Positions 867 through 63,722 of a stretch of 64,000 bases of DNA are shown one piece after another. Numbering within the stretch: position 1 is the stretch's first letter; every line of letters begins with the position of its first letter. The notes under the pieces were generated by a model, which saw nothing but the letters and a program-made list of their open reading frames with translations, did no database searches and was not told the origin of the DNA. Origin of the DNA: Patiria pectinifera (lineage: Eukaryota > Echinodermata > Asteroidea > Valvatida > Asterinidae); the NCBI GenBank assembly GCA_029964075.1, contig CM057150.1, positions 3,139,717-3,203,716 of the forward strand. The letters are read 5' to 3'. Made by a program: the position numbers and the translations under genes.

Positions 867-1170
867 GTACAGCAGTGCACAGACTGCCCCGGTGGCTACA
901 ACTGTCCCGACAACGCGGCCACTTCCTACAGCCACCTCTGCGACGAGGGCTACTGGTGCGACTCGGGTGTGGACCGCGCCAACCCAAACAACCCCTCGGA
1001 GAACGAGACCTACCCAGCGACCTGCCCGATCCTTGGGGGTCACACGGGGGTCGGTGGGGTGTGCCCGAGGGGCTACCGGTGCCCCGTGGGGACCGTGCTG
1101 CCGATTGGCTGTGAGGCTGGAGAATACCAGGACCAGGAGGGACAAGGGAGCTGCAAAGTGTGCCCTGAAG
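867..1170 (+). CDS. exon 1 (internal), Cys-rich repeats
   Basis: The frame reads CTDCPGGYNCPD, CDEGYWC, CPRGYRCP and CKVCPEG, which are GCC-type modules. The 3' end is a strong donor (GAAG|GTAAGC) in phase 1. The acceptor is phase 0 and ambiguous: after the AG at 866, or after AG at 872 or 875, all in frame. Because it opens mid-repeat after an AG, the gene must continue to the left. Intron 1 (253 nt) holds nothing notable. Confidence 0.7.
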
Positions 1171-4100
1171 GTAAGCGGGAATTCACTTCCTTTTGCCAAT
1201 TCATGTAAAAGCTCTGCTAAGCTCGCAAGGTTTGGTTAACTCCCTAGGCTGGCAATATTTAAATATTTGCTTGCAGTGACTTGAGTCGAGTCAGTTACCC
1301 GTTGGGACTCAAGTCTTGGCATTATTGCATTAGACCATTTCCCTTAAAATCCTGTTTTCCCTTTAAATCGTTCAATAAAAAACCAAATTTTTCTTTTAAA
1401 GTTCTTACCAATTTTTTTCCCAGGCTTCTTCTGTCTGGCCAATTCCACTGACTTCGTTGACAATATCTGCCCGACCGGCCACTACTGTCCCAACGGCACC
1501 ACCCTGTCCAACGAGTTCCCCTGCCCGCCGGGGACGTTCAATGACAAACCCCAAGAGATTGATGACGGGGCCTGCGTAGCGTGTACGGCCGGATCCTACT
1601 GCATGGGAACAGGCAATGACGCACCCACGTCCAACTGCAGGTACAGATTCTTAAATATGAAATAGGGCAATTCCAAGCTTACTCATGTTACATTTTTGAT
1701 GTACTCTTAAGATTCCTAGGGCTGTGATTACCTTACTGAAAAGGTTTAATAACTGTTATCCCCATGGTAGATAGAGTAGACCTAGACCTACCTAAGCACC
1801 AAAGATGACATCCAGAAAAATGTGTTATGTATGATAAACAAGACGCACAAAATCGGTTACTCATGTTACATTTTCGTAACGTGAGTAACCGATTTTGTGC
1901 GTCTGTTATTTTCAACTAATTAATTCTGATAGAGAGTTTGAATTAATAAGAGTTCTTTATTAAAAACAAAGGACTTGCCCTGCAAAAGTGAGCATGCATA
2001 ATACACAGTGAATTTTGTCGGTTTTTAAAGGTTTCATTAATTTACATAAGCCATTAGCACATAAGAATTTACACACTGTATTTTGTATGTAATAACGTTT
2101 TGGTGATGTACCACTTTATACAAACTTACGGGTTGCTTCAGACACATAGTTGAAACCAACTTATGGAACAGCTGGAAAGTACTACCAACGGTCTGGGCTT
2201 TAGTGTGTGCATTGCAACATTGACCAATGAAAGAGTGTATTGAGCTCATAAATATGTATTGGCTCATAAATATGCATGAGATGTAATAATGTCTCTCCTC
2301 TCCCCACAGTGATGGGTGGTATTGCATCCAAGGCGCCTCTAGTTCAACCCCAACAGACCCATCCATCGGGGGTCGGTGTGACCCAGGGGAGTACTGCCCA
2401 GGGGGCATTGAGAACCCCATCCCTTGTGACCCTGGGTACTACTGTGAGAGGGCGGGGCTAGCCGCGCCTCATCTGGAATGCTCACAGGGTAAGTGAGAAA
2501 AAAAATTGTCACGTGCCGTCAGGCCGGTGTTTATCTTCGGTATCAGTAGGGTGAAAAGACTGAGAATATTTCTATTCCCCCTGGATGGGATGCCGGTCTA
2601 TTTCTGGTTACTCCCTAGCTAATGCCAGTACCCGTTTGCACTCCTGTGTGGAGAGAGGCAAGTGGGGGTAGAGTGGCTTGCCCAAGGACACAACATACGA
2701 CCAGCAGCTGGATTCAAACCCCTGACACTCTGATCATGAGTCACGAACCCTAGCCATTAGTGCACACTTCCCCTTAACACAGTGAGAAGAGAATACATAA
2801 ATAAATAAATGGTAAATTGTTATTTTCCTAACAATGCAAAAGTTATTTACTCTTGATTGATTATCTTAATTTAGGTTACTACTGCACCCTGGGGGCCTCC
2901 ATCAGCAACCCCACCGACAACGTCACAGGCAACGTCTGCCCCCAGGGCCACTACTGCCCTGTAGGTTCCTGGGAGCCCACCCCCTGCCTGATCGGTTACT
3001 ACCTCGACGCCACGGAGCAAAGCGCCAACACCAGCTGCAAGATCTGCACCAAGGGGATGTACTGCCATCGGGAGGGTCTCCCCACCCCAACAGCTACCTG
3101 CCAGAGAGGCTTCTACTGCCCTGAAGGTCAGGTCACAGCCACCCCCGCCGACTACACCTGCCCCCAGGGTTACTTCTGTGGGGAAGGGTATGGCGATCCT
3201 GAACCCTGCCCGTCCGGGACCTACCAGGACACATTGGGACGGTGGGACTGCAAGACCTGCCCGGCGGGGCATTACTGTAACGCCACCATCGGGCCCGTGG
3301 TGTGGTACGGTTCCTATGTCTGCCCAAGTGGTTATTACTGCCCAAATGGGACAACGTACGCAGAGGAGTTCACCTGCCCTTACGGCACATTCAACAATCT
3401 GACAGGTAGGCTATTCCGTTTAACTCACTCTAACATTTCTGTAACCCTTTTAGTTGTATCTCGAAATACTTAGAAGTGTAATTTCTGTTATCTATCTTTG
3501 TTAATATTAAATTGTCTATCTGTCCTTGCGATGGATTACAATCTATGCTTTTTGGAGAGTGTTGTAGTCAAATCCATCACATGTCCAGTCACAATGAAAT
3601 CACAAGTCCAGTCACAAGTAACTGTGGATGAACATTAACAGAGACATGATTTTTATCACAATTTATTTGAGTAGCTTGCGATTTGACTTGGGACTGGATG
3701 ACTTGTGGTGGACTTGCGAGGACTTGTGAAAGCCTTGACTTGTTTATTTGATTTTTACCGTGAAAGAAGAAATAAATGTATCAAATTGAAATAAACATGT
3801 GATACCACAGTTTAGATTTGCATTTAATCAAGGCAGTGATTCGCCTGCCCTTTTTTTCCAGGTTTGACAGACCAATCAAACACCTCAGATAAATATTTGA
3901 AATTGATTTAATTGAATGTTTATCAAAGAATGGACCAAAGTGTCGGTGAAAGATTTATTCAATTAGGCCAGAGATGGAGCATAATGGCGATCCAGAGCAG
4001 CCAACCTCCGGTTTCAAGAAGTTACTAGATAGATAGATTGATCAATAAATCATGTGAAATTGGGCCATTTCTTTCCTTAGGATTAATGAGTGAACCTGCC

Positions 4101-7100
4101 TGCACACCGTGCCTGCCAGGGATGGCTTGTGATGAGCCAGGCCTGGTCTATCCCAACAGGCCATGCGAGGCTGGGTACTACTGCAGAAAGGGTGCCAACA
4201 TCACCACGCCCACTGATGGTATGAATATGCATGCTCAAGGCTCTCTCTTACTATAGAGTACCAAAGTGTGATATCAGCTGTCATTGTTCTGGTTCACCCT
4301 GGTTTGCGCGCTGATGTCTTCACACACTTAAGCTGTGCGCGTGGAATAGAATACGACGCGCGCTGCGGTACTCTATTACCTATGATAATCGTGCCATTAA
4401 AAGCAAAATCAACGCTGCCACTTCTCCAAAAATGATTTTTGGGAATTTTGGAAGTTTTGTTCCGTTGCTGCTGCCTGTAATAGTACATAAAGAAATGTTT
4501 ATGAGTGCAATGGTGAGAACAATTTAATGAGGAGACCGATTTAAATGATTTTTCCGTTGCATTAATTGTTATATACAAAGCCTTAACACCAGTAATGTAG
4601 AATGAAATCTTCTATTTTTGCAGTGCGTCCAGGCCGTGGGTTTGGACAAATAGTGACATGTGACCAACGACCCACCAATCAGATAACGGGGGAATTCATT
4701 CAAAAGTTCTATCAAATCATTCCTCAAACAAATTTCTACCATTTTCATTAAAAAGATGTTGTCTAGGATTTTTTTAGCATGAAGTGTCTTGATTTGTTCA
4801 TCATGATTTTTTTTTATTTGTCAATTCCTTTATTAAAATCAGGCATGCAACGTTTCCTCAGATTGGCTGATTTCCTCGTTTTTCACTTCACACTTATGCC
4901 ATTAAAAATATTGAAAAACAATGTGTAATAATAAGCTTGGAATGTCCTCTTTGGTTTTGTTACTTCCCAGTTGCATGTCTGTAATATTCATTTATTCATA
5001 AAGGTTATTTCATCAATGAATATTCTGCTGGTTATTGAGGGTACTAATGAACCACACGAACTCATGAATTATTCATCATTCATTATCATTATTCATAAGT
5101 TATTCATAAATTCACCAGGCCCAATGAACGACGAATGCCCTGCTGGTTATTACTGCATGGAGGGTACTGTGGAACCAGACGCCTGCCCAGAGGGGATGTT
5201 CAGCCCGGCCACCAAGCTGAAGATGGTAGAGGAATGCCTCAATTGCACGGCTGGCTACTTCTGCAATTCCACTGGTATGAAATGACACATAGGTTTTTAT
5301 CAAACTCAGGTTTTGTTATCCACTTTGGCTTCACCTCTGGCATTAGAAACCAAACAGATATTTTCTACTTTAGCCTCATATCAAAGGACTGGATGTTCCT
5401 GCAGCCGAATTCTCAAATCACTGCGTGGCTTACATCGTGGGTAGGATTAACGCAACAAAGTTGTCACACAGCTGAGCAATAAACCTGCAATCAATTCCAC
5501 AAAATTTGGTGTAGCTGTGCAACCGTTTACAGTAAATAATTTGAACTTTTTGGACAAGGATAACAGCTTTTTTGATGTCTGAAACAATCGTTGAATCACC
5601 TTCGTCTGCTACTTTGGAAACAAGTTTGTCTGACACTCGTCGGAAATATGAACAAAATATGGACAAAATAGAAAATCCTTTGAAACCAAAGCTGTATCAA
5701 TCCTGATAAGTTGGACACTAATGGGGCCCACAACAATCATGATTAGTCAGTAAATTATTCCATTATCAGTCGCTATGCCATAACTTAGAATGCCATGGTC
5801 CGTAGAATGCCATGGTCTGTAGAATGCCATGGTCCAGTGGTTACGGTGTTCGACTCATGTACCATGGTATGTGGGTTCGGCAAGACACTTAACTACAATT
5901 GCCTCTCTCCACCCAGGAGTATGAATGGGTACCTGTGAGGGTAGAGGACCAAATTGTGCGCTGATAAAATTTGGCTGCCGCGTGGTCTCGTGATGACCTG
6001 ATGTACAGGGGAATAAGTATAAAGTATTTTGAAGTTTACTGCAGTCATCTTGGGATTTTGAAACTGTGCATTGAAGAATTGGAAAGTGTGATCTGATATT
6101 ACTCCTCTTTTTCGTACCGCAGCTCAAACTGAAGTCAGCGGACCCTGCCTGCCCCGCTTCTACTGCAATGAGTCCTCGACCCGCCCAGACCAGACCATTT
6201 GTCCAGAGGGGTACTACTGCGAGGGGACCACATTCAACCCTGACCCGTGCCCCAGTGGAACATTCTCCAATGTAACTGGTCTGGCCGTAGCGTCCGAATG
6301 CCTGGATTGCACGGCTGGCTTCTACTGCGAAGGAACTGGTAAATTTGTCCCAAAAAGCATCTTTCTCATTATTGTAAATTGTTTTGCAGTTGTTAACAGT
6401 GACCTGAAATATATAATTTTTGATGTTTTAGGTCTGGATTTTCCAGCGTCGAGAAAGATTTTGGGAAATATTACTCATCAGACCCTGTTTCAATGTATCG
6501 TTTGTTGTTGACTTAAAACATATACCAAGCTTTTGTAAGCAATACTGTCACATTTAATGGGTCAAAATACGGAATGATTTTGGTTTGAAGTTACTAGAAC
6601 AATAACAACTTTCCATTTCTCTCTGAAAAGAAATTCAGAAAACCTTTTCATTTCTGTCAATTTTCTTATTGTACTTCTGTGCACTTATAGAGGTCATGGA
6701 AGTTACCAGAGATACATGTACATTTCGCATATTGTGTGCAAAACACAAATACCACAAAAAAATAAACCAATCAAAATAACAAATCCATATTTCTACCCTC
6801 TTTGCAGCCAATACGGAGGTGACGGGTCCCTGTGATCCTGGCTACTATTGCCCCCCTAGGTCCGACGCACCCACCCAGGTGATTTGCCCAGAGGGGAAAC
6901 ACTGCCCTCAACAGAGCGCTGAACCCCAGGACTGCCCGGCTGGCACCTATGTGGACTACGAGGGCGCTGCTGAGTGCTCCATCTGCCCAGAAGGTAAGTA
7001 CGAAATCTTGGTTTCTTCTCTAGCATCGGCGCCAGACTTTGGATTCATGATTTAAATTCCTTGACTTGACAGATGCCAGTACAAGCAGTGGTCAATTTTC

Positions 7101-10100
7101 TGCTGTAGAGACACCAAACTTTGTCACTCATGGGCAATGATTGCTGCACTTTTATTGGGTTTTAATGTGGTAGGATTCTTAAGAAACTTTGACTGGAGAC
7201 AGAGACATAGCTGAAGATGAGGCCAGAGTTTCATAAATGCCTGTGTAATTGTAAGCCATGGCCAAATAATTCAGAGATTGCCTTATGTTACGACTATCTC
7301 TTCCCCAGGATATTACTGCATCCCTGAATTGGTCGTGGAGGGCGATGGCTCAACAAGCTACCATCGCTGCCCACGGGGGTTCTACTGTCCCAACGGCACT
7401 GGGCACGACCACCAGCCCTGCCCGGCCGGCACCTACGGCCAATCAGACGGCCTAGCCGCCGCCGTGGAGTGCACTCCCTGCGATGCCGGCATGTACTGCC
7501 AAAATGTGAACCTGACGGCGCCCTCGGCGGAGTGCGACGCAGGCTTCTACTGCGTGTCTGGGGTAGACAAGCCCGATCCTGTCATGTTGGGCGGGGACCA
7601 GTGCCCGACGGGTACCGTGCATCCGATCATCGGTGATGTGTGCCCGAAAGGCCACTTCTGTGAACAGGGGTCTGAATACCCTACTGGTAAGGGACAACCA
7701 CTTATTTGTTTGGTTATTATTCAATATTTTTATTTTTTTTAATTAAAAGAGTATTTGATTAGGAATATAGTTGTTTTTAATTCAGCTTTCAATGCTTCTT
7801 GTACTGTGCATTGAAACCAAACCTAGTGAAAAAACTGTCGTTTGCATTTATGTCTTGGGATTCAAATGCATTTAAACTCTGGTATCTTTGCAGTAATTCC
7901 ACAGTAAATAACTTCTCTCCTTAGGGTTAGCACTAAATGTTCACACTATCCAAAATCTCTATGTTCGACCTGGGTCTAATACGGAGAGAACCCCTTTCAC
8001 ACCAGCAAGAATTCAGCTCGGCTTCTACATGGGTCCGGTGCTCTACATGGGTAATATTCAGCCCTGGTCAGGACCAGGGTCAAGAGGCTGTTACCTGGTA
8101 AAAAAGTCCAATATCACTAGCTGACTCAAGTACAGGCTGATGTAAGTTTGAACATTATGCCTTGCCTACCTGTTTACGTTAGGGCTGGTTCTGCTCACGG
8201 TGGACCCATGTTGATTTCAACCAGGCTAGGTGAGGGGATAGTGTAAAATCCGCTAGCCTGTATTCAGATTAGAAAAAGGATTCAAACCATTTCATCAAGC
8301 TTTTCCCTCTCCCCAGGTTGCGAGGCCGGCACTTACCAAGACCAAGTCCAGCAGTCCTCCTGCCTGCCCTGCCCAGAGAGCTACTACTGCTACCTCAACA
8401 CCACAGACTACACCCCCAACGACTGCCCCACGGGCTACTACTGCCCTCTCAACACCCCGGACCCGTACGCCTACCCCTGCCCGCCAGGAACCTTCAACAA
8501 TCTGACCCTGCAGAAGGGCCCCGAGGCCTGTGTGGCTTGCACCCCGGGGTGGTACTGCGAGGGTTACGGGAACAGCAACCCCACGGCGCAGTGCAGCCCT
8601 GGCTTCTACTGCTCGGGAGGCGCCAACGAAACTATGGTAAGTTGGAGGATCCATACCTTTTGTTACGTTGGTAACAAAAGGAGTTACTTGTGACGTGTGA
8701 TCAGGAAGAATTGTCATAAGTTACAGGGTCCATCTCAATTCATTTTCGGGACGAGTTCTGGACAAGGTGCGGGTAGAATCATTCACTTTGTCTGGAAGAA
8801 GCTCTGCATTTGTCACTGCCGTGTTCAGAGGAAATTGTCATCAGCAACTGCTTGACTCTCCAATACTGGTAACTTCATTGGGACAAAGATTGTGGGAAAG
8901 TTGTTCAGAATCCCGCAACTTATATCCGATAAAATGTCCGCAACTTGTCTCGAAATCACTCCAGATATTAATTGAGGCGAAGTTTAATGCTGACGTGCAA
9001 CAGTAGATCAAACTGAATCATTGGCTGAATGAAAATAAATGAAAAGAGTGTTCGATTCATGTGAGAAACTAACAGTAAATAAGACCATGAAGATTTATTT
9101 GGGGAAGGGTAATCTTTTCTTTTACTTAAACAAATCACCCAATATTCAAGGTAGAGTACAAAATTGTGGACTATAGAAGGATTTATGACTCTAAAAGGTC
9201 TAGCCCATTAGCACCTCAACTACATTGTATTACACTGTATTAACTCAGAATTCCATAAAACTATACAGTTCTGGGGCAGTTTGGGGCTGTACAAGGAGTA
9301 ACAGGCATGTCAGTTTGGGTACTACTCAAGCTAATTGGTTGAAGCAACATCTGTAATGACACTAAAGTAGTAAGAATATAAGTCCTAAAGACTAATATTG
9401 CGGCATTTGGCCACATTTTATTTGAAAATCTGATATTAAAATCATCATATTTCAATATTTTAGAGATCTTAAGTTACAATTTGTAAAAACAGAAAGGAAA
9501 ACTATCATATGCTTTCATGAATATGTGCAAGGACTAATGGGTTATTTAAAACATTCTGAACTTTTTTATTTTCAGCCAATTATGAATGGTGGCGAGTGCC
9601 AACCAGGCGACTACTGCCCCGGCGGCTCAGCCCAGCCCCAGCCCTGTGACCCGGGCTGGCACTGCAACACCACGGGCCTCTCCACACCCTCGGGCCAGTG
9701 CAGCCCTGGCTTCTACTGCCCCGAGGGCTCCTCCAGTCCCGAGGAGCGGGAATGTCCGGTTGGCCGGTACTGCCCGTTGGAGACCAGCGTCCCTGTACCT
9801 TGCTCCAATGGCACTTATAACCCGGCCACAGGGCAGGACGGTCTGGAGGATTGCCTGCCTTGCCAGGCTGGGTTCTACTGTAATGAGATCGGGGCTTCAA
9901 CCACGAGCGGCGTATGCTTGGCTGGTAGGCTCTATCACTTCAAATAATTCAATTTTTGAGTACTAAAATTTCACGAAATTTTATGAAATATTTCTTTGGA
10001 TATTAGTAGACATGGGGTTTATGACGGCTGTAACAACTGTAGTTTGCAATTTGTGCAACTTCCACTTCTTGCAAGAAATGATTTAATAAAAAATCAGGAA

Positions 10101-13100
10101 ATGAAAACAAAAGAATAAATTATCTGCATGAACAACTTGCCGTCACCCTTTTTTTTCTTCATCTACAATATTCATTTCCCAATATCCAATAATAACAATT
10201 GATTTGAAATCGCCGATCCGAATATGGCAACAACTGAAATACTTTGTTGCAGCCATCAGTTGCACGTATTTTTAAACATCCACAGGCACATGTGTGTGTA
10301 ATTACCAGCCTTAACCAAGACGATTATGAACATAGCTTTCTTTTTTCTTCTGAATAGGCTACTACTGCCCCCCTGGTCAGAACACCCCTACCCCGGCAGA
10401 CTACCTGTGCCCGGCGGGCCACTTCTGCAAGGACAACTTCCCCAACCCTGAACGGTGCAACAACGGCACGTATCAAGATGAAATAGGGAAGTCCGACTGC
10501 CTGCCGTGTGAAGAAGGTGAAAAGATTGGCTCGGAGGAAAACGCTAGATGATTTGTCTGTGTATTTCTTTCTTTGTATCAGAATATCTGTATCAGAATCC
10601 GTGGTGTTGGGAGTCGTAAGTTTCATAAAGAAACATGACTGGATTAACTACTAGCGCTCTAACGGCATGATTTTTAAGGACCAAAATGTTGTTTGATGTG
10701 TCGTTTGGAATTGAGAGTGGAAACCTAACGATGTCTGAACCGGATGCCGTTTAAACACCACTCAGTGTTTAAATGGGGGTGCTTAAAACTGGTCACGAGA
10801 CTCTGCACTCCGTGCCACATGCATGCAGTACATGCTGCTTGAGAACCGCTGATATTATCTCTATATAAGGTGATGTTGAGCACACTGCACGTTCAACGTA
10901 CAGTGTTCCATGTGCAGCATAAAAACGGCCTCAACATGGAGTGAAATGGTAGAAGAAACCATGGGAGTTTGTCAACTTTTTTGCTTTTGTTTATGGTTTT
11001 TGATCTGTTAAGGGCCTGGTTAACAATGAAAACCCTTGCCTTTGGCTTGGGTCTTTTTCAGTGGCCAGGCCCCTAACTGGTTTTAAACCATATGTATAAT
11101 GTCCATCACATTATTATTCCCTTGTTAAACATGACATTCATGTCTTTTACACTAAAGGTTACTTCTGCGATAACACTGAGGCTGCTGTGGTCCACCTCAA
11201 CGCCTCGGACTGCCCGACCGGCTACTACTGCCCGTCGGGCACCCAGCGGGCCAACGAATACCCGTGCCCTGCGGGTACCTTCAGTAACCTGACCAACGCC
11301 GTCAACGAGAGTTGGTGCGAGCCCTGCCTAGCTGGCTTCTACTGTCTGCCGGGGTCCAGCGCATCGGAGTTGCCGTGCTATGCAGGGTAAGAGAAGGATA
11401 CAAACGGCAACAAGTTTTGCAGATTTGCAGCCAACGCCTCACAAATAATTAAGTCTCAAGTCAACGTACAAACTATTCTAGTGAACATTTATGGAGGAAT
11501 TTGTTTGTTGTTAATCATCCCTTGTGATTTGGCCTGTGATTGACTTGTGATGGATTGACTGCAGCTCTGATTTTACAACATTTTATAACAAAGTTCAGAA
11601 CTAGTCAGGCTGAAACATTCATCGAAAGTTTTGTTTTTAAAATTTCATTTAGTTGTGTAACCCATTAGTCCCGTCGTGTTACTCCCTGTATCACCCCAAA
11701 CCACCCTGCCTGTTACTCACTGTACTGCTTAAACCATCCTGCCTGTTACTCCTTGTACTGCCCAAAACAACCCACCTGTTACTCCCTGTACCCCCCCCCA
11801 CTACCTGCCTGTTACTCCCTGTACCGCCCCAAACCACACTGCCTGTTACTCCCAGTACCACCCCAAACCACCCTGCCTGTTAGTCCCTGTACCACCCCAA
11901 ACCATTCTGCCTGTTAATCCCTGTACCACCCCAAATTGCCCTGCCTGTTACTGCCAGTATTGCCCCAAACCACCTGCCTGTTACTCCCTATATTTCAAAC
12001 TGCCCTGCCTGTTGCTCCCTGTACCGTCCCAAACACTTTTCCATCCATGCTTCCAAGTATAATAAAATTGAGGTGTACATTTTTTTTGATTTCAGATACT
12101 ACTGTGAAGGGGGCGACGCAGTCCCCAACCCCAATAAATGTCCTGAGGGTAGCTACTGTGTGGATGGTAGCTACCAGCCTACCCCATGCCCGGCAGGGAC
12201 CATATCATCTGGGTTAGGCAACAAGAATGTTACAGACTGCGCACCCTGCGAAATCGGCCACTACTGCAACGTCAACAGCTCTCAAAATGGTAAGAAGCCG
12301 AGTTTTGTTACCGTACAAACCATCAAGTACACATATGTCATGCAGATTGTTTTGTATTTTGCTCAGCTAGAACTGGTCTGTCCTAGCTGATGATGAACCT
12401 CAAAATTGAAATGTGATTTGGTTTTTAGCGAAGTTGACTGGATCAACTTAAAAATCAAGATAAATTCACAGAGAGAGTCTTCCATTCCCTTATTCCTGTT
12501 TTCTGCTTTCTCTCAAAATATTTCATATTGAAAAAGAAATATAAACCAAAAATGATTTATTTTATTTATTTTAGGTTTGACACCTCCCTGCGACCCCGGC
12601 TACATCTGTACCGGGGGCTCGGACATCCCTGACCCCTCAGACGGCATCAGGGGTTACATCTGCCCTGTGGGTCACTACTGCGAGTCAGGAGCCCCCAGCG
12701 AGATACCCTGCAACAAGGGCACATACGCCCCACATATCGGTCTAGGGGCGTGCCTGCCATGCCCAGAAAGTAGGTTCCTTTGTCTCAGATTTTATGCATT
12801 CCGCGTCCTTTTGTATTATTTATCATGTAATTGGACAATATTTCACAAGCTGCGTTGACACGATTCTACCGCAACAGTTCAATTCAAATTTAGCAGCAAA
12901 CTTGTTTAAAGGAAGAGTTTATTCAGTCATTTTTCAGTGTCAAAGCACTACGCAAAGAATCCATTTCACAAGGAAGTAGGAAACGGAGTTCGTGTTACAA
13001 TCAATTTGTGTTTACTGAAATGGAACAACATCACAAGCACAATGCCATTTTAGGGAAAGATCAGACGAGATCTCCCATCCTGGGTGTCAGCAAATTCTGT

Positions 13101-46100: not shown

Positions 46101-49100
46101 TTGGGACAACAGAAATTTTATAATCTATAATAATATATAATTCATGATCTCCATCTTTCTCTTAAAATCTTTTTGCTAGAAAACAAACGACATCAACCGC
46201 GGGAACAGCAACTTGAAGAACAAGATGAAGGAACGGCTGAACAAGCGGCGTCACTCCAAGAAGCACCTGGTACCAGATGGAATCGAACCCGGTACCGATG
46301 AAGAGAAGCAGTATGTTCAAGGTAAAGGGCCTTACAAATTGAACCCCATCTCCCCCAGAAAGAATCCAACAGATGGTGTACAGGTAAAATTAAACCAAAA
46401 ACCTGACAAATGTTTTGACATGGAAGTGTCCTAAACATCCGAAGTCCAATGGACCATGCGTACTTCATCAAAATACAGAACTGGCTTATTGCAAATGTGC
46501 CTTTAATGCCATTTCAGGGAATGTATCGACCCTTTTTCTCTAGAGGGCGCCATTTTGCCTTGATATATCAGCTCAGCTTTTTCTCGTGCGTTTTTCTCTC
46601 GTGTTTAATAGTCGTGGAGTCTCAGATGGAAGCAGACCAGCAGCGCAGCATAGAGGCAGCCATGGAAGTGGCCCGTACCCTAGCCGACGAACAGCAGAAG
46701 GACGAACACGAGAAAGCTATCAAGGTACGGACTCTGCGTAAAAAAACACTCCCTCAGTGATCACAAAAAGAGAATAAGGCAGCATTGTTCAAGACATTAC
46801 CCAGGGTTCGCCCTTAACTTTTTATCACTAGCCAGCTGGACTAGTGAACCAGACTCTTATCTAGCTCGCAGGCCTTTTCACTTGTCTGCAATTTTTTTGG
46901 CACCAGGTAAACAACAATGTGCATACACATGTAACTTTATATGTACAGAGTCTGTGTTGTGTAATTTGTATGCTTTTATGTACCTATATACAAAACGCAG
47001 CGCCAGGCAACGTTCATCCTTTAATTTATACGCTAGCAATTTCGGTGCAGGATTCAGCGGCGCTGTGGCATAAAACAAGCCGAATGCGCGCCAGCAACAG
47101 ATTATTTTTCTCCCACGACCAGTTTTTTGAACAAAAATGTGGAAATCCGCAGATACGTGGAAAAGTTGCATACCTTACTTCAATAATTTTGACTCGCCAG
47201 GCGGACTTCTTAGAGATGGTTTCGACTAGTCTGCTACTTTTTTACTCGCATTTGGCTATGGGCTACCACTAAGTTCAAACTTTGGCTTTACCACAGTAAG
47301 CCTGACAATGAAGAGGGTATGGGAACTTTTAGATCATACGAAGATGCAATGTGTCCTGCAATCTCCTTTTCAGGTACAAATTCAAAATAGATATGCTGTG
47401 CAAAATAATTTCATCAAATGATCAATATTTATTTAACATCAGGAGGTTCTGAGCGATGAAGACAAGCCCGACGCCGAGGTTACTGCCATCATGGAGAAGT
47501 ACCTGGACGATGTTGGGGAACTCCAAGGCAAGATGGACTCAGCCCGGGAGGGGCAGAGAGCGCACCTACTGGCCAAGCTGGCTGCCAGGAAACGCCTCAA
47601 GGAGGACGTCATGGCCGAGGATGCGGTTGCTAAGCAACTGGACCACATCACCAAGAAACAGGTGAGACGGGGAGAAATGGTAAAAAAAAACCTGACAAGT
47701 GATGAAATTTCAGCATTGAGGAGATGTATGGTTTATATTTTTAAATGTAACCCTTCAGCAGTGTTTTGATTTTACCATACCACTTGTATACAAAATGGGA
47801 TATATTGTGGTCATGTTTCAGCGAATCACTTGATTCTGCAGTGGAAATTTGAATAAAAATTATGGAATAATCATGTCTATCATACAAGATGCAGAGTTAT
47901 CTATTAACACCAACACGCATCATATATTTCAATCAGTTTTTTGACTCCAGTTTCATAATTTCTGATGTCCACCATTATCAGAAATTCCCTTACTTACTTC
48001 TGTTTTGTTATCCCTGCAGGTGTTGAAGGGGACAGACGAGGGCGCTGTTGCCATTGATACAGTCAACAGCAACGTCATGGCCGACGAGTCTTTGGAGGAG
48101 AGAAACAAACTGCTGGTAAGATTCCCTAAGATTTGGTATAACTTGAATTGTTTTGGCCATCCATCATCCAGAGCTAAAAGAAATGTATCTGTTAGGACAA
48201 CTAGAAACAATCAGGTCTCTAGTTTCACAGGTACTCTTTTATACTCCTGTATGGAGAGAGGCAATTGGAGTAAAGTGTCTTGCCCAAGAACACAAACACC
48301 ATGTTCCTTGCCAGTGTTTAAATCTAAGTACCATCGCTCACAAGTCAGACTTTCTACTCAATAGATCACAGCACTCCATGGGAAAATTAAGGCCCTAGCA
48401 GGGATTAGCGGAGCAGGGCCAGAGGCAGGCTCGCAAACCAGGTACCCTGGCAAACCGAGTCCAATCTCTCCTATTTTGACCTCCTAATATTAATTATTCA
48501 TGAAACCTTTCAAATATAAAATGACAAAATGTCAAGACCGCTCTTTACAAAAGCTGACCCAGAATTGACCACCTACAAGATGAAATGGCAGCGTGCTGTG
48601 CCATCCTGAAAGAACACTAAGTTGACACTGTAATTCCATACCTAAATATGAAGTGCGTAGGAAGATGTCACAAAGTCTACTGAGAGAATCTGATCGGCTG
48701 ATATTGAGTGCCAAAATAGTAAAGATTTGGACTCAATTATGCCAGCGCATCTTAGGTTGTAAGAATGCCCTAGCTAGCGAGGACCACAGGGAAAGACGAA
48801 ATGGTATATTTATTTCATCGTCTTAACCCTAAAGGGGCCGGGTTATTTTGACCATCTCTCAGCCCGGGGGATTCGCCCCCCCTAAGATCGAGTGAGTCAA
48901 AAAAAAAAAATGTTGAAGCATGGCACATGCAACTCTTCTAAACATAAACAAACCCATTTCAAATTTCATGACTATAGGTTTTTGGGAATTTATGGCTAAT
49001 TAATTATTCATATGAATGTGGCAATTATCTGCTGTGTACACGTGACGATATACAAAAAATTCAGTTTTTCTCGCCTGAGCGCTAAAAATTTTTCACTACG

Positions 49101-52100
49101 CGGCAACCCGTGGTCCATTTTATGTTTATCAAAAGAAGATTAAAGCTAAAAAGAAAAGCAAGCTCTAAAAGTCTTTTTAAAGGCTATCACGGTTTTGGAA
49201 ATGATCGCCCGGCCCCTTTAGGGTTAATCAATTATTTTAAAAACACAAAACGGTAAAAAAAAATGACATCTTTGTTGACCAAAAACAACAAAAAGGAGGA
49301 TGCTGATATGATGGTTAGCCGTGCAAAATGATCAACGTGCTGAACGTACTCACTGCATATGGCCAGCTTGAGTGAGACGCACTGTATGCGGACGTAGTTG
49401 AAACACCAATATAACCATCCAGCATATTTTGGGGGAACTTTTTGGTAAACCCCCCCCCCCTTCCCCATGAAAAAGTTCTTGCTACGTTACTGATAGGTTC
49501 TTGGTTCTTGGTTGGTTCTTCTCCTAAATACTCCACATGGGGGAGTTACAGGAGGAGGCCAGAACGGGGCAAACAAACCCTTCTCTTAGATAAGTGTTAC
49601 TGGGTTCTTTTTACGTGCATTTATACAACACACACAGACTACGCGGAACGTCGTCCCCCGAAGGACGAAGCACAATGGGTTAAGTGCCTTGGCTTAAGGG
49701 CGCAAGTGTCCGGCCGGGAACTCCGTCACTGTCCACTGTTGCCTCTGAAACACCAGAACGTGAGTCCGGTGTTCTTAACCGCTAGGCCATCACACTCCAC
49801 ATAGTGCTTGCTAGTGCTTGCTTGTAAATTAGGAGGAACACACAAAACTTGTTTGCTTTTTTTCACCCCACAGGAAGAGCAAGAATCCCGCCAGGCCCAA
49901 CTCCACCTATCCCAGCAGGCCAAGCTGAACCGACTGGACAAAGATCTGGACAAGGAGCTGGCCGCAACGACCGCCTCGGTGGACGAGCAGCTGGAGGACC
50001 AGAAGAGGGCGCTTTTATCGCGCCAGGAGCGGGAGTTTGAGAAGGAGATGCAGGTCAAGCGCAAGACGCTGACAGAGGATGCCTCTAAGGAACTGGTGGA
50101 GGAACACACGAAAAATGTGAGCGCGTTTTCAAGAACTGTGGATTTGATATCAGGCTTCCCAGCCACTCTGGAAATCAGGCAAAACCTTAAAAATGAGTTT
50201 CCATTTTGAATTTCAGTCAGCAAAATTTCAGGAAATTTCTGAAAAAAATTCAGATTGTTATTTACACACTCACTACCATTTTGAAGACGCCACATGCTCA
50301 CATCTGTGCTGAGGAAGTGTCGTCGCGTCATGAGTGACATGAGCATTGTTGCGATTATTTTGTGTCAAGATGCCGCTTGTTCTACGATATTCACACGATT
50401 TGTCAGTTACTTTTCTGCTTGATGCCGACGGTTTCGTTTCGGCGCAAGTAAATGTGTTAAATGTAATATAATAGTGTTGCTAATGTGTTAAATGTAATAA
50501 TCATGTATACAAACAATTGTTTCTATTTTCAGATGGAGAAGCTGTCTCAAAGCATGGATCTGGAGAAAGACCGGCAGAAGGCATCCCTAGCGGACCGCAT
50601 CGCAGAGAAACGACGTCAGCACAAAGAGCGACTACAGCAGAAGAACCAATCTGAGATGTCCAAGGAAATACTGCAACAGAGAGCCGAGAGAGACCAGCTC
50701 AACAACAAACAGGTGGGACCAGCTGGTTCAAGACTGCGCCCTCTGTTGTTCATATTTCAAAATGTAGACTGCCTAAATCACTGCTATAACACGCTAAGGG
50801 TGTGTGTGTATTTGTTCTTACATATACGGTCTTATGAGGTCCAGGGAACTAAGGGCAACAATAGGGACAATGGTACGTTGCAAGTTGGTCTTTAGAAATC
50901 TCAGTACCCCAGGAGTGAACGCTATGCAGTTTGAGATTTCGGTAGGAACAAAGGAAAACAAAGAAGGGAAATCAAGTGGTCAATAGTTCACGAGTAGGCC
51001 TACAAAGTGTAATGGGCAAAACATGGCCTCTTTACCTTATATTTTATATATTTTTCCAATGATTTTCTCATTGCGTTGTTTACAGCTGAAGGGAGCAGAG
51101 CATCAAGCGCTGGTGGAATCATTGGAAGATGAGGAGAACGGGAAAGCTGAAAACATCATCTACCGGGTGCTGCGACAACGCCACATGAAGGAGCAAGTCC
51201 AACAGGTTTGTTTGTTTGTCAATCAGTCAGGCTGTCTATCTGTTGTTTTCTTTATCAGTTCATCTGCAGCAGATGGATATTCTGCTCATGTACTATGCTG
51301 TAACAAGATTCTGAATTGTGGCTGGCTCTTGGAAAACTAGCTAGACTGACCATTTTAGAGAACTTTTGATTGTATAATAATTTTCCATATGCACAGTTAC
51401 AAATTTGTGGACGGCACAATTTTGACAGACATGGCCTGCCACGTTGTTTTTGCGAAGACAAATTGCCTTTTGAGGAATGCCAGTACTAGCTGTGCATGTG
51501 AAATAAAGACGACACTGTAGCATTCCCACCAAATTGATTGGATGGCACTTACTTTGGAGTTGCCCCCATGTGCTCTTTGTGGATTTAAAATGGGGAAATC
51601 CGAGACCAACCAGGCAAGGCAGGGTATAGCCGAGCAGTGAGACCACAGTTGGAAAGGCTGGTTCCTACTCCTATTGGTATACACTATGGCTGCATTCAAA
51701 TTACTTTGCTTGTATTAGTGCATGTGTTGTAGCTGCCCATAGCCAAGTAATTTGAATGCAGCATTTATTTCAAAGTGTTGTGGGGACCAGACTGGCATTA
51801 CCTCACCAGGTTACTTTTGTGACGTTTTACCCCACTAACATTGAAAAGTCAGAAAGTCTCATTTTGATTGCAATTGTAACTTCTTGGAGATACAGTAGAT
51901 TTTGTTGTATGACCACTCGATCGCTCAAGTAAGTGGATCACGCTGTGCGCAGTGGTTCACATGGAAACGGTGCAAAGTCCAGTCATTTGTCCTTTCCCCG
52001 TCCAAATCTATCAAACAATCTGCTATAATTTTTCTTTCTTTTGGGGAATTTTCCATCCAGGAGGAGCAAATGGATCGGGAGAAGGAGGCAGCCATTGCTG

Positions 52101-55100
52101 ACGCCCGATCCAAGATGGCCGAGCTCTGTCAGAAGGAGCGGGACACCCTGGTGGAGGCTCAGCAGAAGGAATTCCTGGAGCTGGTAGCCAACTCGGGCTC
52201 GCTGTCGGCCGCTAACCTGGCCGAGAGGAAAGAGAAACTGCAGCAGCAACACCAGGTGGGTTAGAGGTGCCTATTGGATGGGTTGCTGACCAATAGAGGG
52301 CGCTGTGGCTTTATCACTTTTAAGGAGGTTCAAATACAGCCAGTTCGATACAGAACGTTGGTTAATTAGTAGTGGATCTGTGAGGTTCTTTACCTAAGCC
52401 AGATATTAAAGCATAAATGTCTCCTGTCTACTTCACGTGAAAATTATATTTGCATATGTTATTGTATATGATGTTATATCTAGTCTAGTGACATTGTTCA
52501 ATCGAGCTGTGAAAAAGGCAGTCCCTTGTTGTTCATCCCCTTATTTTTCTTGACCTGACTCGTGGTTAACCAGAATTTTTCTTGACTGGCAACAGACGTC
52601 CTGAAAAAATATTTTGAAGGTCATTTTTCACTGCAGAGAGATAAATTCTGGATTACTTCTTTTTTTAGAAACAACTAGAGGAGTATGACAAGGTGACGGC
52701 CCAGCGGGCAGAGCAGGCCGCCAAGGACTGCCTGCCTTCAACAGAGGTGAAACAAGCCCACGCCAGACTGGCCATGAGAGAGAGGCAGCTCAAGGAGCTG
52801 GCTGAGGCCATGAGGGACCTGTCTCCTGAAGAGGTCAGTAAACCGTAGGACAATCCATACATGCAGTACAGTTTGCTGAAAAACAGTTTCAAATGACCGC
52901 ACCATCTAATTTTCTTAACAAGTGTACTGTGACATGGTCGGTAGGTGAAATGATGGGAACATTGGTTGTTGCTTGGATCTTGTCCAAGGCTTGAAAACCC
53001 AAAATGTTGATGTAATTTGCTACGCCATTTCACTTTCTTTTTTCAATTCTTTCCGTAGGCTCTGGTCCACCAGTACACAGAGGCAGCCGAGAAGGCAGCC
53101 CGGGACGCCCAGAAGTTCCGGGAGCAGAAGATGAGCCAGATGACCTCGGATATCGAACGCATCAAGGCGGAGAAGAAGAAACGGGACGAGGAGAGGCGGA
53201 ACAAGATGGAGAAAGAGATGGCGTAAGATGTTGTTTTTTTGTTTTTTTATTGAACCTCGGCTTCACCTAATAAGGGGCTTGATCTGCAGCAGATCCTTAC
53301 ACCTCTTTATAGGAGACTCTGGCTTAATATAGGTTTAGAAAACTTGTACATATCGGAACATAGCGCATAGCACTTGCTCAAATAATGCGCGCACTGTACA
53401 TGTATATGCCTACATTGTGCGTGTGTATGGGAGCACTGTATACAATTACGCACGTGCGCGTACGTCCATGCACACAGCACTGACAGGGACTTAGCATTAT
53501 AAAACCGTAGGGTCTATACACTACTATTGACTAGGGCAATGGGTTACAATCGACCAATCACCATAAGTTTTACATGAATGTAATGAGAAAGTATTAGACT
53601 GCAACATGCCGCTTGGTCCAAATGACAACAACAAACGCTTCGGGAGTTATTGCAGGTTTTCTTGCACAAAGTAGCGCAAAACGTGCGTTTTTTCACACCT
53701 TGCCATCGACTTTTACCGAAAACGTGTTGACTTTAACTGGAAAGGGCAATTTATTGTCAGATAAGAAACAAAATAAGTCTTTTACTAATTAAAAGTATGT
53801 GAGTTTCTCCATCAATTAATCTACAAAAAAATTGTCATTGTGGTCTCGATATACTTTCAATTTAACGTTTGAAAACGGTCCTGTTGCTGCGCATTTACTA
53901 CACTTCTAATTGTAACAAAGCAAATGAGCTCTATGTTCCGTTATGTGTGAAAACCCGTAATGTGAAAACTTGTAGTGTGAGGTCATAGTTTAGTCAGGAT
54001 TCCCACAGTCATGGAAAATCCTGAAATTTTAAGCTATCACTGGAACTCGTGGAAAAGTCGTGGAAGTTTGTTATCATAAAAGAAGTTACGTGGTTGATAA
54101 CAATGCTTAACTGTTGTCATAGGACTTTGGAATCAGAGCTGGAGTTGGACCGCGTCCGGGACGAGCAGCGTCAGAAAGAGCGGGACGGGCAGCGCGTGAG
54201 GACGCTGGAGGAACAGAAACAGGAGAAAGAGAGACGACTGCAGCAGGAACTGCAGCAGCTGGAAGGCAACAAAGAAGCCCAGGAGGTATATAGAGTTGTG
54301 CACGCTCTACAGACGAATCCTGAGACATTTGATCACTGTACTCTCACAGGCCCCCTTCAATGGAGAAAGCATTGTGCATGCTATTGTACAAAGCAACTGC
54401 TCCATTGTTTCGCCATTGTAGGGGGTCTTCATGAAGTGAAAGCATGCCTGAATTCGTCTATAGAGGACCCTTTGACAGGCCCGTCGCTAAGGGGGGGGGG
54501 GGGTTCTCGTATGCACCCCATCCCGATGCTCAGGGCTGGCGACGGTGCCGCACTGTGATAAACCACAACTGTAGTGGGGGGTGGGGGGGGGGGGGTTTGA
54601 AACCTTGACTTCATTGCAAGTTTGAGGCTTTTGATTGGGGGACTCTGGCTCAATATAGGTTTGTGGGCTGCTTTAGGAACATCTAAACCTATCAAGGAAC
54701 ATCTGAAGCCATAAGTTGGAGTATTTATGTTTGGGTTTGGGCATGGAAGGCTTTACAATGACTCTCACGCCAGAGATGGACATGATGTATGCGGTGTTCT
54801 GTCCAAAACAGACTCTTCCAGCTGGTCAACATAGGTTTTTAAATATTGGTAAAATATAGGGTCTCCTTTCCACCGTTTTTTTGTGTGGAAACGGAACTCT
54901 TTTGATGAAATTATGCCCATTATAAAACAGTTCTTTATGTCACAAAGGTACAAATGGAACATGCCTGATAAAGTTTTATGCCGCTGCTATGCATTTCTGG
55001 AACTGATACAGTTCTTCAAATCTTACTAAAAGTCACCTTGAGAATTAGAGAAAAACAAACAGAAAATCAAATATATCAACCCCACATCTGTCAAGAATCA

Positions 55101-58100
55101 TCTGCTTTTGACAGAAAAAGTTCCAAATCGCTTGTGTGTCATGCTGCATTTTTGTTTTACTATTTAGTTTAGATTATGAGTTGAGGTTATGAGTTCTCAA
55201 AAGAGTTAAAGGTCGACCACCTTAAGTCAAAATTTTAATTCACTACCACAGAAACTACTGAGGGAGCACCAGGAGAACATGAAGCGGTTTGAGGACTCGC
55301 AACGCCTGGAGCAGGAGCGGAACCAGGAGAAGACTCGGGCCCGGCTGGAGGCCCGACGACGAAAGAAGAAAGAACAGGAGATGGAGAGGATCAAGGGGGA
55401 GGTGAATGGACAGGCCCAGGTGGACGACAGGCGAACCCAGGACCACCTGAATAACATCCAAAGGCAGGGTAGGTTTTTAGGGGTGTGAACCCTCCCTCCC
55501 GCACGCGCCCTCCCAAAAAACAGAGAGTATATAAGATAAAGGGAAGATAAAGGAATAAGAAAGATGATAAAGTACCCTATCCACTTTTTTAAATAAATGT
55601 GTTTTAAGTTAAAGTTAACGGCTTGAAATACTTTCAAGAACAATCAAGATACAGAATCTGTGGGTGACGTGTTATAAAGTGCAATACAAAAGTGGTCATT
55701 GGTTAATCACTTTGTTCTTTTTCGTTCTCTTCACAGGTGCGTCGGACCTGAACGAAACCATCAATTCTACCACTGCGCCGGATGCCCCCAGCGACTGGGC
55801 CCAGCGTGAGCAGGAAGCCCTGGACCGTTCCAAGCTGCCTTCCGGCATGGATGAGTCAGTCTTTGATGCCTTGCTGAAGTCCCCGCTCTACAAGGACCTG
55901 CAAGAGATCGAGGAGATTGTCAAGAGCACTGACGCCCTCAAGAGACCTGGGGTCAAAGGTCAGAGCAAAGAAAAAAACACCATGCATGCAAGAACAGTAG
56001 ATGTTGCTCTGTGGCCACTCACAACTTTACACATATGTGGCAATTTTAGGTACCAGGAACACGAATAGTGACAAAGGGATCCTACAAGTTGGTCATCAGA
56101 AATCCACGTGCTCCGTTAGGAAAATGCTATGTTTCAATAGAAACAAAGAGAACAAAAGTACAAATTAAGATCTAAAATACTGGTACTTCACATCTACTCA
56201 TGTATTTTTAGAAATACCGGAAGGTCTCAAACTCTTTAATTTTTGTTTCAAAATCCAGGTGCCGTTTCAGACGCCTTCATCGACATCAAAGATGCGCAGT
56301 GGCTCCTCTCCAACGACATCGCTCCGCTGGACATCAACAGCATCACCCCAAGCCAGTTTGTGGTCTACCGCTTCGGAGTCTTCATCGTCCGCCTCCTGCA
56401 GAAGACCAACCACACCCCTAACGTCACCCTCCTGCTGGCTTCCAACCTGCCGCAGAACGACTACAGCCGTAACATGTACCGGCGCTCCTTCTTCTACCAG
56501 CACGCCTCAAACATTCTCTTCGTTCGGCGGGAGAGGCTGGAGTCGGTCGGAGAGTTCGTCATGCTGATCATGCACTGCTTGGCGCACATCAAGATCGGTG
56601 ATCTCAAGGACGACACCAACCCGCTGTTCCTGAGGGAGTTCTACAAGGTACAATCAGACAAGTTTTCCTGGTCCCAGAGGGCCAGTAGAGTGTCCCTTCA
56701 TTGACTGACTGACTGCCACTTGTGACCTGGGCAGTGCTGTTATATAAGATAACCCCGTAATGCCAATGAATGAGCTAATATGTGGCCCATTGTGCAGACC
56801 AGATGCTTGAAAAGCCTCCCAGTGAATAAACATTCCGAACCAATAGAATAGAATTAAATGAGTTCTGTAACCAGCTTTACTGGGCTTGATTAGTCTTGTT
56901 TTTGGTTTTAAGGAGCTAATTTTTGTTTACCTTAAAACATTACACTGTGAGAAGAAAGTAACTTCTGGCATTTATTTCCACATAGTAAATACAGTCTGCT
57001 TTGGCCACATGTCCACCCTGATCATTGTAGTAGTCAAGTCCATCACAAGTTCAGCCACAAACAAATCAAAAGTCAATTTACAATACGTCACAAGGAACAG
57101 GGGATCGACAGTGATAAAGGAAGCCTTAATCGCAGTTCATTTGAACAGCAATTGTGACTTGACTTGGGACTTAAAGTATGCAATTGCCTGTGAGAACTTG
57201 TGGGGACTTCTTAAGGACTTTTGAGGACTTGTTAGGGACTTGTGGTTACTTGTGGGGTCTTAAGAGGACTTGTGGGGACTTTTGATGGACTTTTGAGGAC
57301 TTGTGATGACTTATGGGGACTTGTGAGGACTTGTGAGGACTTGTGAGGACTTGTTGTGACTTGTGATGTACTTGTGAGGACTTATAGGGAATTACAATGT
57401 ATAAGAACATATGATAGGCTTGTGGGGACTTATGAGGAATTGAAATGGACTCGACCATGATTCTAGTCCTTCACTCTACACATTGACAATAAGCCTCTGT
57501 ACTGATGACGTCACACTTTGTTTACGTGTGTGCTTTCCTATGGTGCTCAGTGGACCGTGGACCCCCACTGGCTCCATAGGAAAGTGCACATGTAAACAAA
57601 GTGTGACGTCATTAGTACAGAGGCTTATTGGGTAAACTTAACCCTTGGCACTCCTTGGAAAATAATTAATACATTTAACCCTGTTTTGTGTTGATTGTTC
57701 AGGCCATGAAGGTCATTTGTCAGGACATGTTCTTCGCCCGCTCGCGCACCACCCATTTGACGGGGGCACTCATCGGCGGGGCGCCCTCTAGTGGTAAGAC
57801 TGCCCTGGAGCACGCATTCAAGTACAGCAAGACAGACAGCGACAAGACCAGCGTGGTTGGGGAGTTGGTCAATGTGAAGGTCAAAGGGCCAGTTCAGCAA
57901 GACTTCAATGAAGAGGTATGGCAACAAAAAAAGACATACTGGGAGAATTTTTAAACACCTATAGTAATCTTCCAGGTTTTTTTTTTTTCTTCGTCTTTCT
58001 CTTTTTTTGCCTCGATGTTTCGCCATCGTGTGGAACTCTTTTGGGGAAATGATTATATTTTGTTTTCTGCGAAAATGAAAGGATGGTGGAATTTTCTTTC

Positions 58101-61185: not shown

Positions 61186-61735
61186 CTCTATGTTCCAACA
61201 CCTCTATGTTCCAACACGCCTATGTTCCGACACCCCTATGTTCCGACTGCACATGTTCCTATTACTAACACTAGGTATTTATTACTAACCCTAACCCTAA
61301 GCCTAACGGGAGTAAGACAATCTTAGGCCAAAAAAAAAAAGTCTCCGGTTTCTGGTATGCGCGCGCGTCGCCTTAGCCATGCGCGTCGGCAAAATGAAAA
61401 AGTTTTTTTTTCAATGAAAGGTGATATCTCAAAACCGCCAAACTCACTGGTTTGACTGGAATCCTGCTGCTCCACAATTTTAACGTGTTTTTAGATGGGG
61501 TTATGATCGAGAATAAGCTTTATGTGGCCTCTCTGGTCTCCCATAATATTTGCACTAAGTTTAGTCGGGCACCATTTGCAGTCATGAGCCGACATTTGAA
61601 GCAAAAAAAAAACAGGTAAAAAAAAAAAAAGCCGCGTCGCCACACCACTTTTGGGCAAGCTCCACCAGAAACCGGAGACTTTTTTTTTGGCCTTATGTGA
61701 GGGTTGTCGGAACATAGTGGTATCGGAACATAGAG
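61186..61735. repeat. CTATGTTCC repeat element with telomere-like core, interrupted by a MITE
   Basis: Four units of CCTATGTTCCRACAC (61186-61250) are followed by AACCCTAACCCTAA near 61285. After the MITE (61326-61692) comes GGTTGTCGGAACATAGTGG and TATCGGAACATAG, the inverted end. Confidence 0.65.
61326..61692. mobile_element. PIF/Harbinger-type MITE, copy 2
   Basis: The ends GGCCAAAAAA...GTCTCCGGTTTCTGG and CCAGAAACCGGAGAC...GGCC are inverted, with TTA on each side. The inside (ACTCACTGGTTTGACTGGAA, CACCATTTGCAGTCAT) matches copy 1 in intron 34 in the same orientation. Confidence 0.85.
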
Positions 61736-63599: not shown

Positions 63600-63722
63600 A
63601 ACCCACGTCTAACCCAGTTATACCGATGTTCCCCAACCCTAACCCTAACCCTAACCCTAATCCTAAGGATTTCGGGAAACATTGGTATTGGGGAACATAG
63701 GTATTGGGGAACATCGAATAGA
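63600..63722. repeat. CGATGTTCCCC element with (AACCCT)n
   Basis: TACCGATGTTCCCC leads into four AACCCT units (63635-63660). The inverted ends GGTATTGGGGAACATAGG and TATTGGGGAACATCGA follow. It has the same plan as the block at 61186-61735. Confidence 0.7.

Follow-up and report, generated by a model that had tools for sequence, protein, structure and literature searches.

A 160-exon gene model from Patiria pectinifera predicts a giant single-pass membrane protein with a nested cysteine-rich ectodomain

A stretch of 64,000 nt from the 613.5-Mb assembly of Patiria pectinifera (C22:3139717-3203716, hereafter "the window") harbours the downstream part of what is very probably one gene. Judged from its sequence, the architecture of the encoded protein comprises a signal-peptide-like start, an ectodomain of nine super-repeats, a membrane-proximal domain, one membrane helix with a basic anchor and a cytoplasmic part made up of helical stretches, a DPxTG block and a C-terminal domain. 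If expressed as modelled, this would be a very large membrane protein of 10,000 aa encoded by 160 exons. A paralog of the gene is present on the same chromosome.

The exons were assigned by a spliced-gene finder which combines splice-site weight matrices and a codon model into a phase-consistent exon chain, and which was seeded by hand-picked exon-like segments and then re-estimated on the window. While a low exon penalty yielded 196 exons, many of them tiny, the model was built with a stricter setting resulting in a raw chain of 77 exons, the last of which lies beyond the stop codon of exon 76 and was dropped. The 76 candidate exons extend on the + strand from position 867 (first acceptor) to 59203 (end of the stop codon) and form a single open frame, 4,727 aa in length and closed by TAG. 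Both ends exactly recover the span given by the original prediction, which had been made by eye. Its count of 73 exons and at least 4,683 residues is close to the 74 exons and 4,697 aa that remain when the weak exons 62 (29 nt) and 63 (61 nt) are omitted, which the frame survives, while it falls short of the full candidate model. Exon 35 (29 nt) is weak as well, and small exons elsewhere may be missed or wrong. The chain score of the window amounts to 2,356 on the + strand compared to 311 on the reverse complement and to 4, 9 and 15 for three Markov-1 sequences, and a coding score above 20 is reached by 52 of the 77 exons on the + strand, by 8 of 50 on the reverse complement and by none in the Markov-1 sequences, the strand control being partly circular since the gene model was trained on the + strand of the window. 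For the whole gene region the chain score is 4,927 versus 542 for the control, and the 85 kb upstream flank scores 66. The features of the window are listed below; E-values refer to the paralog.

867..2915, +: exons 1-3 and first part of exon 4, tail of super-repeat copy 6, which starts upstream of the window
2916..9752, +: super-repeat copy 7, corresponding to aa 5576-6262 in the numbering of the 10,055-aa model, 73 Cys
9753..19533, +: super-repeat copy 8 (aa 6263-7000), 81 Cys, more divergent
19534..25521, +: remaining Cys-rich ectodomain following the super-repeats, from within exon 23 through exon 30
26566..26777, +: linker in the opening portion of exon 31, bearing RRLL twice (RRRLL in the paralog)
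26778..28264, +: membrane-proximal domain, exons 31-33, beta-rich by our reading; the paralog homologue is a single exon (domain E 3.6e-18)
28376..28441, +: membrane helix by hydropathy, exon 33, continuing into exon 34 by a few residues
29163..29359, +: basic stop-transfer segment carrying the PKYRAL motif, exon 34
29618..29646, +: weak candidate (exon 35) by which the model maintains phase, without independent support
30595..32098, +: first of the charged helix-prone stretches, encoded by exons 36-39, of which 36 and 37 are matched in the paralog (E 2.8e-6)
33033..38838, +: exons 40-46, DPxTG block, 11 motifs in exons 41-46 with a gap at exons 43-44
38958..55468, +: exons 47-71, long charged helix-prone stretch, including the doubtful exons 62 (48863-48891) and 63 (49699-49759)
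55737..55958, +: exon 72, acidic linker ahead of the C-terminal domain, lacking a counterpart in the part of the paralog that was read
56259..57915, +: C-terminal domain, conserved, exons 73-74; its HxLAHIKxGD motif starts at 56573 (domain E 3.6e-47)
58347..59203, +: C-terminal tail, exons 75-76, with TAG at 59201-59203

Both paralogs have RRLL-type motifs where the Cys-rich part gives way to the membrane-proximal domain (26685-26760; C22:13548055-13547537). By our reading they are non-canonical for furin and possibly constitute a processing site.

The locus proposed by the original prediction is thus real, yet too small, as 84 further exons and the start of the gene lie outside the window. 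Application of the gene finder to upstream stretches extends the Cys-rich exon chain to about -82.5 kb relative to the window. A search for signal-peptide-like starts from -112 to -72.5 kb, a range lying outside the window, provided two candidates. The first is an ATG-containing exon spanning -84119 to -84050, the donor of which is in phase with the next exon; the second, an ATG at -82525, would turn this next exon into the first one. All figures for the full-length model use the start at -84119, 84 kb upstream of the window. It consists of 160 exons spread over 143 kb (C22:3055597-3198919) and reads from ATG to TAG through 30,168 nt and 10,055 aa with zero internal stops. An exon chain read by eye from raw animal DNA can hence be right and nevertheless span about half a gene. 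Introns longer than 1.6 kb number just two; measuring 7.9 and 4.7 kb, they lie upstream of the window. Exon junctions are of phase 1 in 90 of 116 cases within the ectodomain and of phase 0 in 25 of 43 within the later part.

The ectodomain preceding the membrane helix is 7,606 aa long and contains 795 Cys and 157 N-x-S/T sequons, whereas the cytoplasmic part following it counts 12 Cys and 8 N-x-S/T in 2,424 aa. This asymmetry across the helix is what one expects from the sequence of a protein with a secreted and a cytosolic half. Only two hydrophobic segments are found by hydropathy, namely residues 4-26 and about 7606-7644 (10,061-aa model, see below), in agreement with the single membrane helix predicted originally. 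The model shows the hallmarks of a type I single-pass protein, i.e. an N-terminal signal-peptide-like start, one membrane helix and a basic cytosolic side. The layout of a surface linker suggested by the original prediction, with a long outside part, one helix and a long inside part, is supported in outline.

Within the ectodomain self-similarity is observed at lags near 690 and 1,380 residues. It arises from eight super-repeat copies of about 690 aa (aa 1433-7000) with pairwise identities of 34-49%, which are preceded by a ninth copy recognised by a local match (aa 653-1417), whose start we set at aa 740 for counting. From the first to the last, the copies contain 73, 69, 73, 73, 73, 73, 73, 73 and 81 Cys. 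Of the 74 Cys columns in copies 2-7, 72 are invariant, and all nine copies have Cys in 57 columns. The two non-invariant columns trace to copy 3, in which one GYYC is missing and an extra Cys is present nearby. An acceptor 18 nt upstream (splice score 3.0 vs 5.7) restores the GYYC, leading to 74 Cys and a protein of 10,061 aa; the comparison of the repeats reveals that one acceptor of the model is wrong. Alignment of a super-repeat copy with the others yields scores of 753-1,853, while the maximum reached by shuffles with fixed Cys positions (n=20, four places each) is 329. Since the copies derive from different exons and the repeats were not used in building the model, the agreement of the Cys positions strongly supports the latter. 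The conserved number of Cys per super-repeat is odd, so that by symmetry at least one Cys per unit would be free or bound to another chain. The nested repeats represent a clean natural case of growth by duplication of a ~690-aa unit with a frozen cysteine pattern.

The protein contains a known small Cys-rich module. As stated by the original prediction, GCC2/GCC3 repeats are present: PF07699 (Ephrin_rec_like, GCC2_GCC3) exceeds its cut-off of 23.1 bits in two of eight pieces of the window protein (29.3 and 25.7 bits) and scores below it in two more (21.5 and 18.2 bits). In an N-terminal piece encoded at about -74 kb, the Pfam model of the ELAPOR1-like TNFR domain matches five stretches (E 5.1e-13) and Ephrin_rec_like four. 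The Pfam scan of the window protein covered 4,697 of 4,727 aa in eight pieces, exons 62-63 being left out, and within this portion Ephrin_rec_like is the sole family above cut-off, other families remaining far below theirs. Neither a kinase nor any other catalytic family exceeds its cut-off there, and no cytoskeleton-binding domain is among the Pfam matches to the window protein.

The cytoplasmic part does, as predicted, contain DPxTG repeats. Eleven DPxTG-like motifs are located in exons 41-46, with a spacing of 15-17 residues where they are dense; a twelfth match to the pattern, further along, is of another type. Since all seven genome matches to a query from this block fall within the gene itself (14 of 14 candidates scored), it is not a dispersed repeat, and no second copy was found in the genome. 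A beta-propeller of the WD40/WRAP-T type was considered for this block and rejected. The E-values of the five best chains (2.9e-22 to 1e-15) are sums of weak matches, in which near-identical blades of the target repeatedly align to one query stretch of ~30 aa at 4-11 bits each, and no match was obtained in the follow-up search for the 148-aa piece in which DPxTG motifs are densest. The AlphaFold2 model of exon 42 alone has a mean pLDDT of 43.2, too low for a fold search.

The two coiled coils of the original prediction could not be substantiated as such. The stretches in question are charged (D/E/K/R up to 51%), poor in Gly/Pro (down to 0%) and helix-prone, but a heptad pattern with p<0.05 versus shuffles is detected in just 4 of 28 blocks of 84 aa, where phase shifts could mask heptads. 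Given this signal, single charged helices are as conceivable as coiled coils. Plectin repeats, spectrin repeats, the plakin domain and GRIP find no Pfam match in the cytoplasmic pieces.

In contrast, the globular end forecast for the protein is borne out by a C-terminal domain which is conserved between the gene and its paralog, including the HxLAHIKxGD motif. In our view this motif presumably recalls an inactivated zinc peptidase. An actual zincin metallopeptidase was rejected, as HExxH is lacking and both paralogs carry HxLAH with Cys or Ala replacing the Glu; Pfam, NCBIfam and PDB searches with the domain provide no zincin match. A single-sequence AlphaFold2 model of exon 73 displays a helix, strands and then a helix bearing the HxxxH, its mean pLDDT of 42.7 being too poor for a fold search. 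Neither the membrane-proximal nor the C-terminal domain is significantly matched in Pfam or PDB, and for the C-terminal domain the same holds for NCBIfam. Querying PDB with single sequences as well as two-row paralog alignments of both domains reached a best E of 0.12, nothing convincing. Relatives on viral contigs were found neither for exon 73 nor for exon 42 nor for most of exon 4. The statement of the original prediction that the combination is not known from a named family agrees with these Pfam, PDB and NCBIfam (one domain) searches. Because the membrane-proximal and C-terminal domains are common to two genes and lack a significant Pfam match, they delineate a definable and testable family, as opposed to one more version of a family already studied.

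From its shape, we give an even chance to the protein being a giant type I membrane tether, passive, with an extended Cys rod outside. The ectodomain would form a disulfide-stapled rod with a length of a few tenths of a micrometre, estimated from the ~3 nm which a small module of the TNF-receptor repeat type occupies. This rod would connect the membrane to a distant partner, to matrix or to a neighbouring cell, while the cytoplasmic part together with the C-terminal domain would pass the attachment on to an internal scaffold, for which actin, microtubules or vesicles are candidates. The protein would thus act as a passive tether and not as an enzyme-linked receptor. Distinctly less likely is an uptake or sorting receptor, the Cys-rich ectodomain of which would bind ligands while the helical part captures vesicles in the manner of a golgin. 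The match of the N-terminal piece to the ELAPOR1-like TNFR model points in this direction, and a long helical part in the cytoplasm is suited to the tethering of vesicles, but no sorting or GTPase-binding Pfam domain is found in the window protein (4,697 of 4,727 aa). Somewhat less probable still is a role as coat or hair on cilia, flagella or gametes, in which the protein, as a giant single-pass glycoprotein, would build a thick layer at the surface, its cytoplasmic part being tied to axoneme or cortex. Its favourable points are the 157 sequons of the ectodomain and the occurrence of giant single-pass surface glycoproteins on algal flagella; against it, an axonemal Pfam domain is absent from the same portion of the window protein.

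Several known systems share single traits with the putative tether. Ephrin_rec_like repeats are carried by Eph receptors and SCUBE, and the small Cys-rich module is common to this gene and to Ephrin_rec_like proteins including ELAPOR1. What distinguishes the present protein from these is the nesting into ~690-aa super-repeats, the 795 Cys and the very long cytoplasmic part; next to Ephrin_rec_like, no partner domain, be it a kinase or another one, is detected by Pfam in the pieces scanned. With Eph receptors in particular it has the Ephrin_rec_like module in common, while fibronectin III, tyrosine kinase, SAM and ephrin-binding domains are absent from the scanned 4,697 of the window protein's 4,727 aa, a portion comprising the entire cytoplasmic part apart from exons 62-63; upstream of the window, the search for these domains covered two pieces (227 and 171 aa) of 5,328 aa. 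Plakins and golgins possess, like this protein, a very long charged helix-prone stretch and a terminal domain, yet to our knowledge they are devoid of a giant secreted half. FMG1-B of Chlamydomonas flagella is single-pass with thousands of extracellular residues and a short cytoplasmic tail, in contrast to the 2,424 aa found here.

According to a survey of huge proteins (>5,000 aa), the proteomes richest in them are those of Patiria miniata (250) and Strongylocentrotus purpuratus (234) (PMC11573180, as far as accessible). The size class matches that of the protein described here, its architecture is not described in the accessible text, and the word "ephrin" is absent from the main text as accessible. 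With the same restriction to accessible text, our literature search, which included PMC2805694, PMC12716839 and PMC11573180, retrieved no paper on this architecture. As two echinoderm proteomes have the highest numbers of huge proteins in that survey (PMC11573180, accessible part), public databases may already contain a predicted entry for a protein of this kind.

The paralog became apparent with a 316-aa query covering nearly half a super-repeat, which gave at least 124 matches in the genome, at least 65 of them in this gene and at least 59 in the paralog (126 of 204 candidates scored). The latter are located on the minus strand at C22:13,557,891-13,651,092, about 10 Mb away. The paralog locus as a whole extends over C22:13522105-13682109 (minus), the upper bound being one PF07699 match assigned by inference. 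Downstream of the paralog super-repeats, the membrane-proximal domain is matched once and the C-terminal domain twice. We read 8.0 kb plus 2.0 kb of this region, and all E-values come from a search against one 2,855-aa sequence. One exon combines RRRLL with the membrane-proximal domain; the next predicted exon combines the membrane helix with KPRYRAL and is, taken alone, weak (E 0.03). Beyond the matches of the helical stretch and the C-terminal domain listed above, piece p7 of the eight paralog pieces shows a domain-level match alone (4.4e-6), its whole-sequence score being removed by the bias correction, and p5, p6 and p8 show no significant match. No DPxTG block occurs in the part of the paralog that was read (8.0 kb plus 2.0 kb), which suggests that the block was either gained in this gene or lost in the paralog. 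Common to both genes is thus the order of Cys super-repeats, RRLL with membrane-proximal domain, membrane helix, helical part and C-terminal domain.

The unbroken frame through 160 exons and the paralog keeping the same order argue for one gene rather than several neighbours. The original prediction had named two points, between exons 27 and 28 and between exons 33 and 34, at which transcripts might split the locus. Both are weakened, because the ends of the combination occur twice in the same order; at 33/34 a split would moreover cut a fused unit, given that one predicted paralog exon carries the helix together with [KR]P[KR]YRAL. In a rival arrangement of two or more head-to-tail genes, a Cys-rich protein, secreted or membrane-bound, and a cytoplasmic helical protein would be encoded separately, and their joining would be an artefact. 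This is compatible with a gene finder which seeks a single chain and is unable to choose between one gene and several, with the weakness of exon 35 directly after the membrane helix, and with a query of 326 aa taken from the long helical stretch which matches this gene and not the paralog, but the same order on the other strand about 10 Mb away and the fused paralog exon render it improbable.

Returning to the single-gene tether, a more elaborate version may be conceived from both sequences, though we consider it a long shot. It would constitute a two-gene tether family with a nested disulfide rod of exceptional length, whose odd Cys (73 in seven of nine copies) might lead to covalent dimers or bundles, with DPxTG motifs gained or kept in one paralog and a scaffold-docking head derived from a dead zinc peptidase.

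Elsewhere in the genome, at least 98 strong matches to PF07699 exons were counted (150 of 237 candidates scored), distributed over contigs C7 (33-43 Mb), C20, C18, C3, C8 and others; those on C7 are often tens of kb apart. Two of four other such loci inspected show Cys-rich frames with different spacing and are probably other genes. Within the window, neither RNA families at gathering threshold nor tRNAs were detected. A dispersed repeat, probably a transposon fragment, occurs in an intron (29964-30315) and downstream of the gene (61334-61685) with 89% identity over 356 aligned bases. Introns further contain minisatellites at 21778-22135 (11-base unit, about 32 copies) and at 11677-12034 (34-base unit, about 11 copies) as well as a near-palindrome at 57487-57630, which is 86% self-complementary over 146 aligned bases. 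Finally, a telomere-like run of six CCCTAA units is located at 63631-63666, deep within the contig.
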